A DNA stretch of 37,555 nucleotides, from contig DXGJ01000020.1 in the NCBI GenBank assembly GCA_019113985.1, forward strand, positions 73,030 through 110,584, in the 5' to 3' direction. How positions within the stretch are numbered: the stretch's first letter is position 1; each line of letters begins with the position of its first letter. This document shows positions 1,017 to 5,554 of the stretch, piece after piece. The stretch comes from Candidatus Levilactobacillus faecigallinarum. GTDB taxonomy: Bacteria; Bacillota; Bacilli; Lactobacillales; Lactobacillaceae. The notes beneath the pieces were generated by a model, which worked only from the letters and a program-made list of their open reading frames with translations, had not been told where the DNA came from and did no database searches. A program made the translations under genes and the position numbers.

Positions 1017-1034
1017 TAGCATTGCCCTCCCTTC

Positions 1035-1156
1035 AAAAAATAGGGCTCAAGATTAAACCACTCCCATTCGTCAACAGTTCCCAAAGAAACCATTGGACTG
1101 AACGCTTGGTGGTTTGATCTTGAGCCCCATTGCTCTGGCACAACCTCAGTGTTGTG
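1035..1156 (-). promoter_or_regulatory. EutV (ANTAR) antitermination leader of eutA: two hexaloop hairpins plus terminator
   Basis: On the minus strand a first hairpin at 1139-1156 has stem CACAAC/GTTGTG and loop ACTGAG. A second at 1122-1135 has stem GAGC/GCTC and loop AATGGG. Both six-base loops carry A at position 1 and G at position 4, the ANTAR recognition signature. A terminator follows: arms 1109-1127 and 1043-1061 (19 bp, one mismatch) with a run of T (minus) at 1035-1040. The 3' arm of the second hairpin lies inside the 5' arm of the terminator, so forming one excludes the other. The first hairpin includes the eutW stop codon. Confidence 0.9.
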
Positions 1157-2597
1157 TCTTTTGATCAAACGAGAAACTAATACTCGTTCCTTCCGAAGAA
1201 GATTCAATTTTCAAACGACCCAATAATTTATCCTTAACATAGTTACGGATAATGGTTAGGCCGAGGCTTCCGGGCCGCGTGTGTTCAAGGTCAAATCCAA
1301 CGCCATCGTCAGTAATCGTTAGTGTAATAATTTCGTGCGCTACTTGGCCTTGAATAATCACGTGTCCCATTCGTTGTTGACCCTCAGGATAAGCATGCGA
1401 CACAATATTTTGCAAGATTTCATTAATAATAATTGATATCGTCACAACCTGGTCGCTGTCTACCGTAATATCCGGATCAACTTCTAAAGCAATGTTTACT
1501 TCTTGATTCTGTTCATTCAGTTGAACGAAATGTGATACTAATAACTGAATTGCCGCTTTAAGATTTGTTTCATCCTCAAGCTGCTTAGACATCAACTCAT
1601 ACGTCGATGCAATCGCCATGATTCGACTGATGCTTTCGCTAAGAACTTTCTTAGCCTCTTCACCCTCTAATCGACGTTGCTGAATTCGTAGAAGTGAAAT
1701 CACCGATTGCAAATTATTCTTGATTCGGTGATTGATTTCGCGAATCGCGACTGATTTTGAGATAATCTCTGCTTCTTTGGATTTTACATCCGTTTTATCT
1801 TGAATTAAAACCACCAGCTGCCGACTATTCTTGTTCCAGAACTTACGCTCCTTGAAGAAATAGCTAAGGTAATTAAAGCTGTGGGCTAAAAACTGTCCAT
1901 CATGATGAATTTCTTGTAATTGCGTGACAGTATCATCAAACTGCGAACCATCTAATGATAAATTCTCGTAATTCAGTCCAATGATATTTCCAATATACCC
2001 CACGCGCTGATACAAACTAATGGCCGCCCGATTTGCAAGGACAAGGTGCTTTGTTTCGTCAAAAACTAAGATAGCATCCGCCAGTTGATCCGTAATCTCC
2101 GTATCCAACTGACCAAACATCTTGAGCGTTGCCGAAACATCGTCATACGTCGATTGAACGTCAGTCCCTTGAAAGTTCTTCAAAACGCCTTCAGAAACGT
2201 CCGATTCTACAATCGTCACACCAATTGCCTTATTCTTCCGCAATATTGGATAGATTCGTTGATGAATTAAACGACGTTCCTGTGTCTCAGCCAGCAAGCC
2301 GACTGAATTCAACTTCGTTTCCAGCGTATGAAACACACCGGGCTCATTCTTCCGTAAAGCTATCTCACCAACAACCTTATCGTGATACAACGACTCACAA
2401 CATTTAGGTGATTTATGGTAAACCACCAAGGCCTGATTATTAAACGCGTTCCAAACATCGATAAAGACATCGTGGTCTTGATACTCATCGGTCTCCTCAA
2501 TCCGTTGCGCCTCTAGCGACAACGTAACGATATCCAATTCCGATAAATCCGTGTATTGGTGACACAGTTCTTCTAATCTATTCATTAGTTTACGCAT
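1146..2597 (-). CDS. eutW: EutW sensor histidine kinase
   Basis: Cytosolic sensor kinase that phosphorylates EutV in response to ethanolamine (role known for Enterococcus and Listeria EutW). No membrane segment is visible in the 483 residues. The N-terminal half is a sensor region, with a PAS-like stretch around residues 165-265. An H-box of the HisKA_2 type, REINHRIKNNLQS, puts the phospho-accepting histidine near residue 290. The ATPase part shows NEILQNIVSHAYPEG (N box), DDGVGFDL (G1) and GSLGLTIIRNYV (G2). The start overlaps the end of eutV by 8 bases, so the pair is translationally coupled; an ATG four codons downstream (2585) is an alternative start. The last codons form part of the eutA leader hairpin. 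Confidence 0.92.
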   Translation of the reverse strand: MRKLMNRLEELCHQYTDLSELDIVTLSLEAQRIEETDEYQDHDVFIDVWNAFNNQALVVYHKSPKCCESLYHDKVVGEIALRKNEPGVFHTLETKLNSVGLLAETQERRLIHQRIYPILRKNKAIGVTIVESDVSEGVLKNFQGTDVQSTYDDVSATLKMFGQLDTEITDQLADAILVFDETKHLVLANRAAISLYQRVGYIGNIIGLNYENLSLDGSQFDDTVTQLQEIHHDGQFLAHSFNYLSYFFKERKFWNKNSRQLVVLIQDKTDVKSKEAEIISKSVAIREINHRIKNNLQSVISLLRIQQRRLEGEEAKKVLSESISRIMAIASTYELMSKQLEDETNLKAAIQLLVSHFVQLNEQNQEVNIALEVDPDITVDSDQVVTISIIINEILQNIVSHAYPEGQQRMGHVIIQGQVAHEIITLTITDDGVGFDLEHTRPGSLGLTIIRNYVKDKLLGRLKIESSSEGTSISFSFDQKTQH

Positions 2598-3159
2598 CCA
2601 TTACGATTAATTCAGCAATTGCGCTCATCGACTGCCGTTTCGACATACTTAAATTTCGTAACATCTTGTAAGCCGCACTTTCGGACAAGCTGTTTTCTTC
2701 CATTAGGATTCCCTTAGCACGCTCAATAACTTTTCGTTCTTCTAGCTTTGTTGAAAGGTCGTCAACTTCATTCGAAAGTTCACGCGTTTTCTTATTGTGG
2801 GCTAGACCAAATTGTATAGTTGTGAGCAAGGATCTTTCTGAAAGGGGTTTCACTAAATATCCAACTGCACCGACTCTACCGGCAGTTTCTGTATCCTCTA
2901 GATCACTGTAAGCAGATAAATAGATAATCGAGCCAGCTAAGTGGTCCTCCATAATCTTCTTACCAGCCTTCAAGCCATCTAAGAGGGGCATTCGGATATC
3001 CATGATCACTAAATCCGGCTTTTGCTTTTGGCAAGCGTCGATTGCTTCAAAGCCATCGCCACCTTCACCAACCACCTGATAGCCTGCGTGTTCAAGAATA
3101 TCTCGAATATCCATTCGCGTAATTGGTTCGTCGTCTACAACTACTATTCGTTCACTCAT
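2590..3159 (-). CDS. eutV: EutV response regulator with RNA-binding ANTAR domain
   Basis: Antitermination protein: after phosphorylation it binds paired hairpins in nascent eut mRNA and blocks terminators. The receiver domain is at the N terminus (VVVDDEP, phospho-acceptor Asp in VIMDIRMP near residue 53, conserved K in LVKPLS). A coiled linker (about 115-140) leads to a C-terminal ANTAR domain with the typical VIERAKGILM and SESAAYKMLRNLSM segments. The ATG at 3159 has AAGGAG at good spacing; an upstream in-frame GTG at 3168 overlaps that site and is unlikely. The protein is 189 residues, normal for the family. All RNA targets visible here (1035-1156, 4455-4533, 4641-4683) match its known recognition rule. 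Confidence 0.95.
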   Translation of the reverse strand: MSERIVVVDDEPITRMDIRDILEHAGYQVVGEGGDGFEAIDACQKQKPDLVIMDIRMPLLDGLKAGKKIMEDHLAGSIIYLSAYSDLEDTETAGRVGAVGYLVKPLSERSLLTTIQFGLAHNKKTRELSNEVDDLSTKLEERKVIERAKGILMEENSLSESAAYKMLRNLSMSKRQSMSAIAELIVMDA

Positions 3160-3245
3160 GATAAACACTCCTTATCGCCATGAACCTTCTATCGGCATGA
3201 CAATGCTGTTTATACTTTAACATGCTCAACAGAATTTTCAACACA

Positions 3246-3274: not shown

Positions 3275-4420
3275 CTACGAAAAACTCGTTTCGAGAAGTT
3301 TGATAACATCTTCACGACTTGGTTTCCGTGGATTAGCAGCAGTTGTTCCATCCTTCAACGCAGCCTCAGCAATCTCTTCCTTAGTTTGTTCGAAGAAGTC
3401 TGACTTGATACCGTACTCGCTAAACGTAGCTGGCATCTTCAGGCGACGACGTAATTGAACGATAGTATTCATTAAGCTGCGAACAGCAATTTTAGGGTTA
3501 GCAACGTGAATACCAATCAGTCTTGCTAGATTTGCATATTTCTTAGCGGCCCGGTTTGGCTTAGCCATAACTCCGTCAGCCATCTCGGCGTTATATGCAA
3601 TAATATTTGGCATTAAGATTGTATTCAAACGACCATGTGGAATATGATATTGTGCGCCGGCTGCATGGGCAATACCATGATTCAAGCCCAGATTAACCAT
3701 GTTAAATGCCATCCCGGCAATGCAGGAGGCATCGTGCATCTTTTGACGAGCTTCCATGTCAGAACCGTTCTTGCTAGCACGTTCTAAGTAAGTGAAGACC
3801 ATTTGGAAGGCCTTCTCAGCTAACGCATCCGAGAAGTCATTGGCGTTAATTGAAACGTAAGATTCTAAGCAATGCGTTAAGACGTCCATACCAGTATCCA
3901 CAGTAATATTTTGTGGTGCAGAAGCAACCAAGTTTGCATCCAGTAACGCAATCTTTGGTAAGATTTCATCCGTTACTAATGGGTACTTGATGCCCTTCTC
4001 ACTGTTCGTAATGACGGCAAAATTCGTAACCTCTGATCCCGTTCCACTTGTGGTCGGAATCGCAATCAGATCCAAGTCTGGCTTGTCTGGCGACATTTGA
4101 TTAGCGAAGAACTTCATGCCCTTCGTCGCATCAATCGCAGAACCACCACCCACAGCGATTAAGAGGGTTGCTTTAAATGCTTGCAAAGCCTCAATCCCCG
4201 TTACTATCTTGGTAATCGGTGGATCAGGTTGAATATCAGAAAAGATTTTCACGTCATTTTGTTTTTCCAAATGACTGGTGATTTGATCAATACTCCCTGA
4301 TTTAACCATGAAGGGGTCAGTTACTAAGAAGATTCGCTGATTCTCGATACTTTCCAGACCCGTCAGAGCATCTTCACCACTCCAAATTTGGGTTTTAAAC
4401 TGTATTTTTTCCAAACGCAT
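3275..4420 (-). CDS. eutG: iron-containing alcohol dehydrogenase (EutG/PduQ type)
   Basis: Reduces the aldehyde released in the eut/pdu pathway (acetaldehyde or propionaldehyde) to the alcohol with NADH, recycling NAD+. The 381 residues are the normal size for type III metal-dependent dehydrogenases. Visible motifs: GGGSAIDATKG (NAD binding), PTTSGTGSEVTNFAVI, and metal ligands in the segments MDVLTHCLESYVS, NLGLNHGIAHAAG and HIPHGRLN. The ATG at 4420 follows GGAGG closely (AAAGGAGGTTATG). It has its own promoter and ANTAR attenuator upstream and sits between a cobalamin adenosyltransferase and eutVW. That placement makes an ethanolamine role more likely than a general alcohol dehydrogenase, though sequence alone does not separate EutG from PduQ. 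Confidence 0.88.
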   Translation of the reverse strand: MRLEKIQFKTQIWSGEDALTGLESIENQRIFLVTDPFMVKSGSIDQITSHLEKQNDVKIFSDIQPDPPITKIVTGIEALQAFKATLLIAVGGGSAIDATKGMKFFANQMSPDKPDLDLIAIPTTSGTGSEVTNFAVITNSEKGIKYPLVTDEILPKIALLDANLVASAPQNITVDTGMDVLTHCLESYVSINANDFSDALAEKAFQMVFTYLERASKNGSDMEARQKMHDASCIAGMAFNMVNLGLNHGIAHAAGAQYHIPHGRLNTILMPNIIAYNAEMADGVMAKPNRAAKKYANLARLIGIHVANPKIAVRSLMNTIVQLRRRLKMPATFSEYGIKSDFFEQTKEEIAEAALKDGTTAANPRKPSREDVIKLLETSFS

Positions 4421-4454: not shown

Positions 4455-4533
4455 AAAAAAGGTGTTTTAGAAGACACTAACCCAATGTTAGTGTGTCCTA
4501 AAGCACCTTTGCTTTTTATGTACGCCATTGTAC
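4455..4533 (-). promoter_or_regulatory. EutV (ANTAR) antitermination leader of the alcohol dehydrogenase gene
   Basis: Minus strand: hairpin 1 at 4520-4533 (GTAC, loop AATGGC, GTAC); hairpin 2 at 4500-4515 (AAAGC, loop AAAGGT, GCTTT), 4 bases apart. Both loops have A1 and G4. The terminator has arms 4487-4507 and 4461-4481 (21 positions, mostly paired), a 5-base loop and a T run (minus) at 4455-4460. The 3' arm of hairpin 2 is inside the terminator's 5' arm, as expected for antitermination. Confidence 0.9.
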
Positions 4534-4560: not shown

Positions 4561-4589
4561 ACTATAGCGCTTACATTTCGAACCGTCAA
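4561..4589 (-). promoter_or_regulatory. promoter of the alcohol dehydrogenase leader, overlapping a cre-like box
   Basis: Minus strand: -35 TTGACG (4584-4589), 17-base spacer, -10 TATAGT (4561-4566), each 5 of 6 to consensus. Transcription would start about 20 bases before the first ANTAR hairpin, so both hairpins are in the transcript. The spacer and -10 contain TGTAAGCGCTATAG, which fits 12 of 14 positions of the CcpA cre consensus. Confidence 0.7.
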
Positions 4590-4609: not shown

Positions 4610-4637
4610 AAAAAAAGCCGCAATAAAGATTGCGGCT
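4610..4637 (-). terminator. intrinsic terminator of the riboswitch RNA
   Basis: Minus strand perfect 9-bp stem AGCCGCAAT/ATTGCGGCT with a 4-base loop, followed by seven T. It separates the small RNA from the alcohol dehydrogenase promoter. Confidence 0.93.
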
Positions 4638-4640
4638 CAC

Positions 4641-4683
4641 CATAAACACCATTGTTTATGTTCGAAGTGCACGCCATTGTGCA
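4641..4683 (-). promoter_or_regulatory. paired ANTAR hairpins of the riboswitch RNA
   Basis: Hairpin 1: TGCAC, loop AATGGC, GTGCA (4668-4683). Hairpin 2: CATAAAC, loop AATGGT, GTTTATG (4641-4660). They are 7 bases apart. Both loops obey the A1/G4 rule and both stems are perfect. Confidence 0.9.
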
Positions 4684-4696
4684 GGTAAGATTGAAA

Positions 4697-4726
4697 GCAC
4701 CCTGTCCAAGCCTCGGGACAGAATGC
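4697..4726 (-). promoter_or_regulatory. hairpin between riboswitch and ANTAR pair, candidate cobalamin-controlled stop
   Basis: Minus strand arms GCATTCTGTCC (4716-4726) and GGACAGGGTGC (4697-4707) pair over 11 positions with two G-U pairs. The following bases (TTTCAATCTT) are only modestly T-rich, so this is a weak terminator at best. It lies where the known systems end transcription early when adenosylcobalamin is bound, which would remove the EutV-binding hairpins. That role is inferred. Confidence 0.45.
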
Positions 4727-4839
4727 TAATCGAGCAATTTATCGAAAAGACCTGACTTATAGCTTGCGCTAATCACAGTGGCGGGACCGTACCGGGTTTG
4801 CACCGGTTTCCATTCGACAGATGCTTCTATTCAATTCTT
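4727..4839 (-). promoter_or_regulatory. cobalamin riboswitch
   Basis: Minus strand carries the conserved core: GGAAACCGGTGCAAACCCGG, then ACGGTCCCGCCACTGTGA (the GCCACTG loop), a short stem TAGC-GCAA-GCTA, then AGTCAGGTC, a B12-box-like segment. The 3' side departs from the usual B12 box, so the exact end is uncertain. It lies 3' of the adenosyltransferase that makes its presumed ligand. Confidence 0.85.
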
Positions 4840-4891
4840 GGCTTTACTATATCACAGCACAGATTTTTTAACCAGTACTTTAAGTAAGTAT

Positions 4892-5449
4892 TTAGTGGAA
4901 TACCTGTTGGCCATGTTCATAAAAGATTTCTGGCGTATTCGTTCGGTAGTTCATAACACGTGCCAGTGCGTAAAAATAATCAGACAAGCGGTTCACAAAA
5001 ATCAAAATCTGCGCTGGCAAAGTTGCCGTCCAATTCAAGGCGACCACTTGCCGTTCTGCACGCCGCGTAATTGTCCGACAAACCTGCAATAACGCAGAAG
5101 ACTTGCTCCCGCCAGGCAGAATGAACCGTGTGATAGGATCCGGTTCATCTTGATATTGATCAATCTTCTTTTCAATCCAGCCAACATATTTATCGTTAAA
5201 TCGCATACTATCAGCAGTTAAGTTGGGATTGGCCAAGTCCGTTCCCAGATCAAACAAACATTGTTGTAGCTGAATAAGCTCTTGCCGAATATCGGACTCA
5301 CTGTCCAATTCTGCAACTGTTAGGCCAATAAAGGTATTTAATTCATCAATTGTCCCGTAAGCCCAAACGCGATCGGAGTTTTTGCTCACCTTGCCACCGC
5401 CGACCAGTTTCGTCATTCCCTTGTCGCCAACCTTTGTATAAAGTTGCAT
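4892..5449 (-). CDS. pduO: PduO-type ATP:cob(I)alamin adenosyltransferase
   Basis: Transfers the adenosyl group of ATP to cob(I)alamin, giving the cofactor of ethanolamine ammonia-lyase and of diol dehydratase. It is also the ligand of the adjacent riboswitch. Motifs: YTKVGDKGMTKLVGG at the N terminus (ATP site), RVWAYGTIDELN, FILPGGS and RTITRRAER with the conserved arginines. The real start is the ATG at 5449 (MQLYTKVGD), which follows AGGAGG; a longer frame to 5506 has no ribosome site and runs through the terminator of its own leader. It is 185 residues, normal for the family. In the eut setting it fills the role of EutT although the fold is PduO-like. Confidence 0.93.
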   Translation of the reverse strand: MQLYTKVGDKGMTKLVGGGKVSKNSDRVWAYGTIDELNTFIGLTVAELDSESDIRQELIQLQQCLFDLGTDLANPNLTADSMRFNDKYVGWIEKKIDQYQDEPDPITRFILPGGSKSSALLQVCRTITRRAERQVVALNWTATLPAQILIFVNRLSDYFYALARVMNYRTNTPEIFYEHGQQVFH

Positions 5450-5470: not shown

Positions 5471-5537
5471 AAAAATAAAAATACACAAAGACGCCAAATA
5501 GACCACTCATCACCGAGCGAACTATCTGGCGCCTTTG
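5471..5537 (-). terminator. attenuator-like terminator in the adenosyltransferase leader, with one ANTAR-type hairpin
   Basis: Minus strand arms 5522-5537 and 5486-5501 pair over 16 positions (two G-U), followed by TGTATTTTTATTTTT. It lies between the promoter at 5555-5583 and the start codon at 5449, so it must be read through for expression. A hexaloop hairpin TGGC-AAAGGC-GCCA (5527-5540; A1, G4) overlaps the terminator's 5' arm, as in the other eut leaders. No clear first hairpin fits between promoter and this one. Confidence 0.7.
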
Positions 5538-5554
5538 CCAAACTTATCATCAAA

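Follow-up and report, generated by a model that had tools for sequence, protein, structure and literature searches.

A putative riboswitch-controlled sponge RNA for the antiterminator EutV in the eut loci of lactobacilli

The eut locus of Candidatus Levilactobacillus faecigallinarum very probably encodes, on the minus strand between eutT and eutG, an RNA of the EutX/Rli55 type (positions 4839-4610), i.e., a riboswitch-controlled sponge for the antiterminator EutV in which adenosylcobalamin (AdoCbl) would end transcription at the last hairpin of the aptamer; we place the probability of this reading at approximately 0.86. The analysed stretch of DNA, hereafter the window, comprises 37,555 nucleotides (nt) of contig DXGJ01000020.1 (GCA_019113985.1). 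The parts of this decoy RNA and their order are conserved among lactobacilli and occur together with EutV; by analogy with EutX and Rli55, the RNA would bind EutV, titrate it in trans and be terminated at the last aptamer hairpin. EutX of Enterococcus faecalis is said to go back to the work of DebRoy in 2014, and Rli55 of Listeria reportedly to that of Mellin in 2014. The EutX/Rli55-type reading had been put forward in the original prediction, made from the letters of the window, and is supported by the present analysis; titration of EutV and B12-dependent shortening of the transcript are what we infer. The elements of the decoy RNA are as follows:

4846-4854, minus strand: extended -10 promoter element TGATATAGT, the likely promoter of the decoy RNA, with a predicted 5′ end at about 4839
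4692-4838, minus strand: AdoCbl (cobalamin) riboswitch aptamer, RF01482 at 91.5 bits (gathering threshold 50)
4697-4726, minus strand: last aptamer hairpin (P13), the proposed AdoCbl-stabilised terminator, within the Rfam alignment and predicted at -16.3 kcal/mol
4668-4683, minus strand: ANTAR-target hexaloop hairpin 1, loop AATGGC (TGCAC-AATGGC-GTGCA)
4641-4660, minus strand: ANTAR-target hexaloop hairpin 2, loop AATGGT (CATAAAC-AATGGT-GTTTATG)
4610-4638, minus strand: intrinsic terminator of the long form, a ten-pair stem (4638-4615) and a T run

The minus-strand cobalamin riboswitch core, for which the original prediction had proposed an Rfam cobalamin search as a check, scores well above the threshold in that search, and the alignment to RF01482 extends over the full length of the model (1-149/149; E 4.4e-16). 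As judged from sequence, the decoy RNA is likely transcribed from TGATATAGT: all 11 Lactobacillaceae eut loci compared (the window, L007, L008, L009, L010, L017 and L039-L043) have the motif TGNTANNNT at -15 to -19 relative to the start of the aptamer, against 7.2% of shuffled 30-base stretches, and the element is absent from the output of a consensus promoter scan of the window. The first hexaloop hairpin starts 13 bases after the last aptamer hairpin. Both hexaloop stems are perfect and closed by C-G pairs, the linker between them measures 7 bases, and both loops carry A at position 1 and G at position 4, as the earlier description of two perfect A-N-N-G-N-N hairpins had it. When two Watson-Crick stems of at least 4 are required, three hexaloop pairs pass on the two strands of the window (the decoy, 4533-4500 and 1156-1122); 60 minus-strand shuffles yield a mean of 0.03 pairs and none when both stems need C-G closure, and when the 75 bases that follow the aptamer are shuffled 20,000 times, no pair with stems of at least 5 and C-G closure arises. 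The terminator stem begins two bases past the second hairpin without overlapping it, and both hexaloop stems and the terminator are present together in the predicted fold, so the terminator indeed stands apart from the second hairpin as had been claimed. The energy model additionally puts an A-U pair inside the second decoy loop.

The arrangement differs in the cis-acting leaders of the neighbouring genes, of which the following were located together with one promoter:

4455-4533, minus strand: cis ANTAR leader of eutG, hexaloops 4533-4500, second hairpin within the terminator
4561-4589, minus strand: separate promoter of the eutG leader, TTGACG-17-TATAGT
1028-1156, minus strand: cis ANTAR leader of eutA, hexaloops 1156-1122, second hairpin within the terminator
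about 5504-5540, minus strand: probable cis ANTAR leader of eutT, loops AAAGGC and GGTGAT, inside the terminator hairpin

The overlap of the second hairpin with the terminator, previously described for the eutG and eutA leaders, was confirmed: the minimum-energy fold of both is the terminator, and the first hairpin alone survives. The first hexaloop of the eutA leader spans the end of eutW. The third leader, before eutT (about 5540-5504), and the likely extended -10 promoter of the decoy RNA are additions to the original prediction. The second loop of the eutT leader starts with G instead of A in the window, and its counterparts in L007, L008, L017 and L042 have A at position 1 and G at position 4.

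In the proposed mechanism, the decoy RNA would be transcribed from its own promoter, and ethanolamine would lead EutW to activate EutV. Without AdoCbl, the polymerase would pass the aptamer and produce a long form of approximately 230 bases, whose two free hexaloop hairpins would bind activated EutV, such that the terminators before eutT, eutG and eutA would stay closed. With AdoCbl, the ligand would stabilise the last aptamer hairpin, transcription would stop at approximately 4690 and the decoy would not be made; the freed EutV would then open the cis leaders of eutT, eutG and eutA, and the system would work as an AND gate with substrate and cofactor as its inputs. A trans-acting RNA is the natural reading because the decoy of L040 is separated from the eutG leader by approximately 1.5 kb with an open reading frame of 114 amino acids, and because the aptamer lies on the strand opposite to eutV in five Streptococcus-type loci (the Enterococcus-, Listeria- and Streptococcus-type labels of loci were assigned in this analysis). 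Furthermore, eutT precedes the decoy on the same strand, so that transcription continuing past the end of an induced eutT could raise the amount of decoy and weaken the response.

The layout is conserved throughout the 11 Lactobacillaceae loci, in all of which the aptamer and eutV share one strand, with the aptamer approximately 1.5 to 3.4 kb upstream of eutV, the hexaloop stems begin 13-20 bases past the last aptamer hairpin, and a terminator-like U-run is located at +75 to +90, counted from where the aptamer ends. A at position 1 and G at position 4 occur in both decoy loops in 10 of the 11 loci. Across 31 aligned hexaloop pairs from decoys and leaders, both-sided changes are found at six of eight base pairs, although the 100% pairing of this alignment is largely due to selection because 30 of the 31 rows were chosen as paired; one of 31 rule-picked rows was dropped (an overlapping second pair in L042), and the decoy of L017, which fails the rule, was added. 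L008 (genome G030) is included in the layout counts and lies outside the 397 genomes considered below, and L044 (G307) was kept out of the layout counts and is included in the genome count. L044 is a contig of a Lactobacillaceae-assigned draft; inspected by eye, its eut region resembles that of Enterococcus, and the contig is probably a binning contaminant. In L042 (G338), eutV and eutW appear as shorter frames, which could be a sequence error; the aptamer, decoy and leaders are kept. The eutV frame of L094 (G440) contains three in-frame stops, yet an AdoCbl aptamer of 104 bits is present.

The aptamer and EutV also co-occur at the level of genomes. Among 397 Lactobacillaceae genomes, 22 have ANTAR family matches at E up to 0.001, which we divided into 11 strong ones (at least 67.7 bits), taken as EutV-type, and 11 weak ones (below 25 bits), four of which reach the cut-off only with neighbours in frame. 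With Infernal's stricter filters, RF01482 is matched in 17 of the 397 genomes at E up to 0.001 and over threshold in 11, and these 11 are the 11 genomes with strong EutV matches. In one of them, G089, another locus also exceeds the threshold (L112, 52.8 bits). The hexaloop pair is absent from either strand of the eight other cobalamin-riboswitch loci of those genomes (L112 and seven below threshold), and the rule finds a decoy pair in every eut riboswitch locus but the L. brevis-like one (10 of 11). Beyond the family, the aptamer is present in 20 of 20 stretches taken from 55 EutV-positive Lactobacillales genomes; it is likewise present in 6 of 6 named-genome loci with EutV over most of its length and in 9 of 10 source loci of another set, the tenth (L016) being a part of the window's contig that ends before the aptamer; L011 and L076 are one locus.

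The reach of the hexaloop motif was examined with a covariance model of the 31 pairs on 14 genomes, for each of which the best 150 candidates were scored. Of 40 matches at E up to 1, 31 fall within eut loci and include many training rows; six weak ones lie outside eut loci in EutV-positive genomes (E 0.0105 to 0.84), three occur in members of the genus without EutV (E 0.235 or worse), and all 30 matches below E 0.005 are in eut loci. The genome of the window gives three matches, all in this locus (E 2.6e-6, 2.9e-6 and 2.7e-4). Because these are training rows that match by construction, the informative part is that this 72% complete genome has no match outside the eut locus at E up to 1 among its best 150 candidates. 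The window's eutT leader is missed by the model, and the eutT leaders of relatives are matched. Control of pdu by EutV was rejected, as no hexaloop match outside the eut locus was found in the window's genome, G015, G011 or G030 at the same limits.

The lactobacillus RNA most likely adds to the known EutX/Rli55 kind of sponge, in a compact layout. According to passages of PMC5821096, the short form of EutX in E. faecalis ends at the aptamer's own last hairpin. The terminator rule finds no separate terminator between aptamer and decoy in six Enterococcus-type loci (L011, L012, L044, L075, L077 and L078), nor does it here. By contrast, counted from the end of the aptamer, the first decoy loop is located at +13 to +22 in lactobacilli and at +85 to +96 in those six loci, in which the choice of the loops counted as decoy is our own reading, and a clear terminator follows the decoy directly in 11 of 11 lactobacillus loci, whereas none is found by rule in the six Enterococcus-type loci. 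Rli55, as described in passages of PMC8079631, is likewise a riboswitch-led RNA with an ANTAR element, which sequesters EutV without B12; its forms of approximately 200 and 450 nt are longer than the 150 and 230 predicted here, and three Listeria-type loci (with rli56 present) have a separate strong terminator at +28 and the hexaloop at +165 or +166. The lactobacillus layout is thus tighter than that of the Enterococcus-type and Listeria-type loci. The E. faecalis eut cis ANTAR leaders, as described in parts of PMC3369931 and PMC8934654, share the paired hexaloops, A1 and G4 and a short linker, although their second hairpin overlaps the terminator stem, unlike that of the lactobacillus decoy. 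The decoy linker of 7 bases falls inside the range of 5-12 reported for E. faecalis, where linkers of 3 or 14 harmed induction (passages of PMC3369931). A search of open-licence papers, with subscription papers outside its scope, found no EutX-like RNA in lactobacilli.

Expression data are available for L. brevis. Genome G015 carries a decoy locus (L017) with an aptamer of 99.1 bits, and its alcohol dehydrogenase is one residue away from solved structures. These structures we take to be those of L. brevis, and G015 is for that reason probably L. brevis. In L. brevis ATCC 14869, 116 genes changed with ethanolamine plus AdoCbl, 14 with ethanolamine alone and none with AdoCbl alone (PMC11086012); eutT, G, V, W, A, B and C are among the 116, and the locus tags run in the order eutT-G-V-W-A-B-C, as in the present locus. 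None of the terms riboswitch, sRNA, small RNA and antiterminat is used in the main text of that paper. The data fit the decoy model, and the match is not complete. The model offers a mechanism for the joint effect of ethanolamine and AdoCbl on L. brevis eut expression (PMC11086012), adds lactobacilli of food and gut to the known bearers of the sponge-RNA design, and is directly testable in L. brevis, which can be cultured; the compact layout moreover represents a small natural scaffold for studying how an AdoCbl aptamer switches a protein-binding RNA.

Several observations weigh against the sponge reading. In L. brevis, the pdu genes and apf were also induced, and eutH had no significant change by quantitative PCR (PMC11086012); the covariance model finds no EutV leader for pdu in the L. 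brevis-like genome (E up to 1; best 150 candidates), and the decoy RNA leaves the induction of pdu and apf unexplained. The second decoy loop of that genome (G015, L017) is GATGGT and lacks A1, a base that matters in E. faecalis. Among the seven RNA-contact positions of EutV given in published passages, K143, R168, M172 and R175 are identical by eye, N173 and R177 are replaced by S, and position 147 is R in the window, against the L147 printed in the passages and K in the aligned chain. The stop for the short form, placed at the last aptamer hairpin by analogy with EutX (passages of PMC5821096), is the least supported step because only a modest U-tract follows that hairpin: directly behind it, UUUCAAUC at 4696-4689 contains 4 U in 8 bases, and the corresponding stretch of Furfurilactobacillus rossiae has 3 in 8. 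The hairpin passes the terminator rule in 7 of the 11 Lactobacillaceae loci and fails in the window. UUU follows it in 10 of the 11 loci, which is compatible with termination there and not proof of it; as such proof, the U-tract was rejected because eut riboswitches are not set apart by their U counts from seven other cobalamin riboswitches (3 to 6 of 8), an eighth (L110) being left out because of its short flank.

Two related readings place the switch in folding, and both are improbable. The somewhat better of the two envisages a compact lactobacillus EutX whose 5′ end pairs with the bases between aptamer and decoy, such that AdoCbl would set the access of EutV through the folding of the completed RNA, either in place of a transcription stop or in addition to it, which would yield a reversible post-transcriptional sponge. 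In its strict form, to which we give slightly less credence, AdoCbl would not stop transcription at all, and the ligand-bound aptamer, closed by pairing of the 5′ end (AAUUGAAUA) with UUCAAUU, would hide or distort the first hexaloop from EutV. The short distance from the last hairpin to the hexaloop stems in all 11 loci and the near lack of a U-tract in F. rossiae speak for such masking, as does the presence of the closing helix in the predicted fold of the window; furthermore, 5′/3′ complementarity is higher in matched pairs, with both ends from one species, than in pairs exchanged between species (73 of 20,000 permutations do as well, without a correction for relatedness). However, the closing helix coexists with both hexaloops in that fold and does not exclude them, UUU is retained in 10 of 11 loci, and when whole RNAs of the 11 species are folded, the native partner ranks first in three and second or third in three more, the window being ninth of 11, with a mean of 6.7 expected pairs for native and 4.3 for exchanged partners. 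Shuffled links reach the native closing-helix value in at most 2 of 40 cases in six species and in 4 to 11 of 40 in the other five. Matched pairs show no excess over exchanged ones in the non-lactobacillus group (mean -9.3 vs -9.9 kcal/mol, for wide windows holding promoter sequence). The modelled 5′/3′ pairing is thus plausible as a closing helix; as the switch itself, the outer helix is favoured by pairing energies and has mixed results from in-context folding, and it was set aside in that role and retained as a possible feature.

Returning to the EutV sponge, an ordinary cis-acting riboswitch, in which the aptamer would govern read-through into the eutG alcohol dehydrogenase, is a considerably poorer account of the locus. 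The aptamer does precede eutG on the same strand in the window, L010, L040 and L042, the loci with reading frames listed, but it is separated from eutG by the terminator at 4638-4615 and by a further promoter that has an ANTAR leader of its own, the open reading frame and approximately 1.5 kb intervene in L040, and aptamer and eutV lie on opposite strands in the five Streptococcus-type loci. Least credible is that the hexaloop pair is itself an antiterminator target through which EutV lets the polymerase pass the 4638-4615 terminator. The motif shared with the cis leaders speaks for this reading, but here it does not overlap the terminator and all three hairpins fold together.

The minus strand of the window reads eutT, decoy RNA, eutG, eutV, eutW and eutA, and includes the following genes:

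4892-5449, minus strand: eutT, PduO-type ATP:corrinoid adenosyltransferase (TIGR00636, 202.7 bits, cut-off 108.45)
3275-4420, minus strand: eutG-like iron-containing alcohol dehydrogenase (17 family models match, none over cut-off)
2590-3168, minus strand: EutV response regulator with ANTAR output domain (PF00072 and PF03861 over cut-off)
1146-2597, minus strand: EutW sensor histidine kinase (PF12282 and PF07568 over cut-off)

The position of the eutG-like gene fits the gene order of the L. brevis list in PMC11086012, and the best solved relative of EutV is 6wsh/6ww6 (E 3.6e-76). Beyond the window (L016), eutA is followed by eutB, eutC, genes for two BMC-domain proteins, an aldehyde dehydrogenase and a phosphate propanoyltransferase, eutH, eutQ and a gene for a PduV/EutP-family protein; the eut genes are followed downstream by a CbiQ-type cobalt transport gene (L016, 3524-4429). 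The source draft genome (G000) amounts to 1.76 Mb and shares its genus with G011 and G030. A mobile eut locus was considered and rejected: a plasmid collection yielded EutV-like proteins in 13 records (E up to 1e-20), and no lactobacillus is among them.

Candidate boxes for the regulator CcpA, resembling the catabolite-responsive element (cre), overlap the -10 elements of two leader promoters on the minus strand, namely ATGTAAGCGCTATAG at 4576-4562 (2 mismatches) at the eutG leader and ATGTAAGCGTTATAC at 5570-5556, read by eye, at the eutT leader. The former is kept in 8 of the 11 Lactobacillaceae loci with up to 2 mismatches, and together the boxes suggest catabolite repression. The consensus behind them is loose and is matched with at most 1 mismatch at 18 other places in the window. 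In L040, a cre-like box (ATGAAAGCGTTACAT) lies within the promoter region of the decoy itself.
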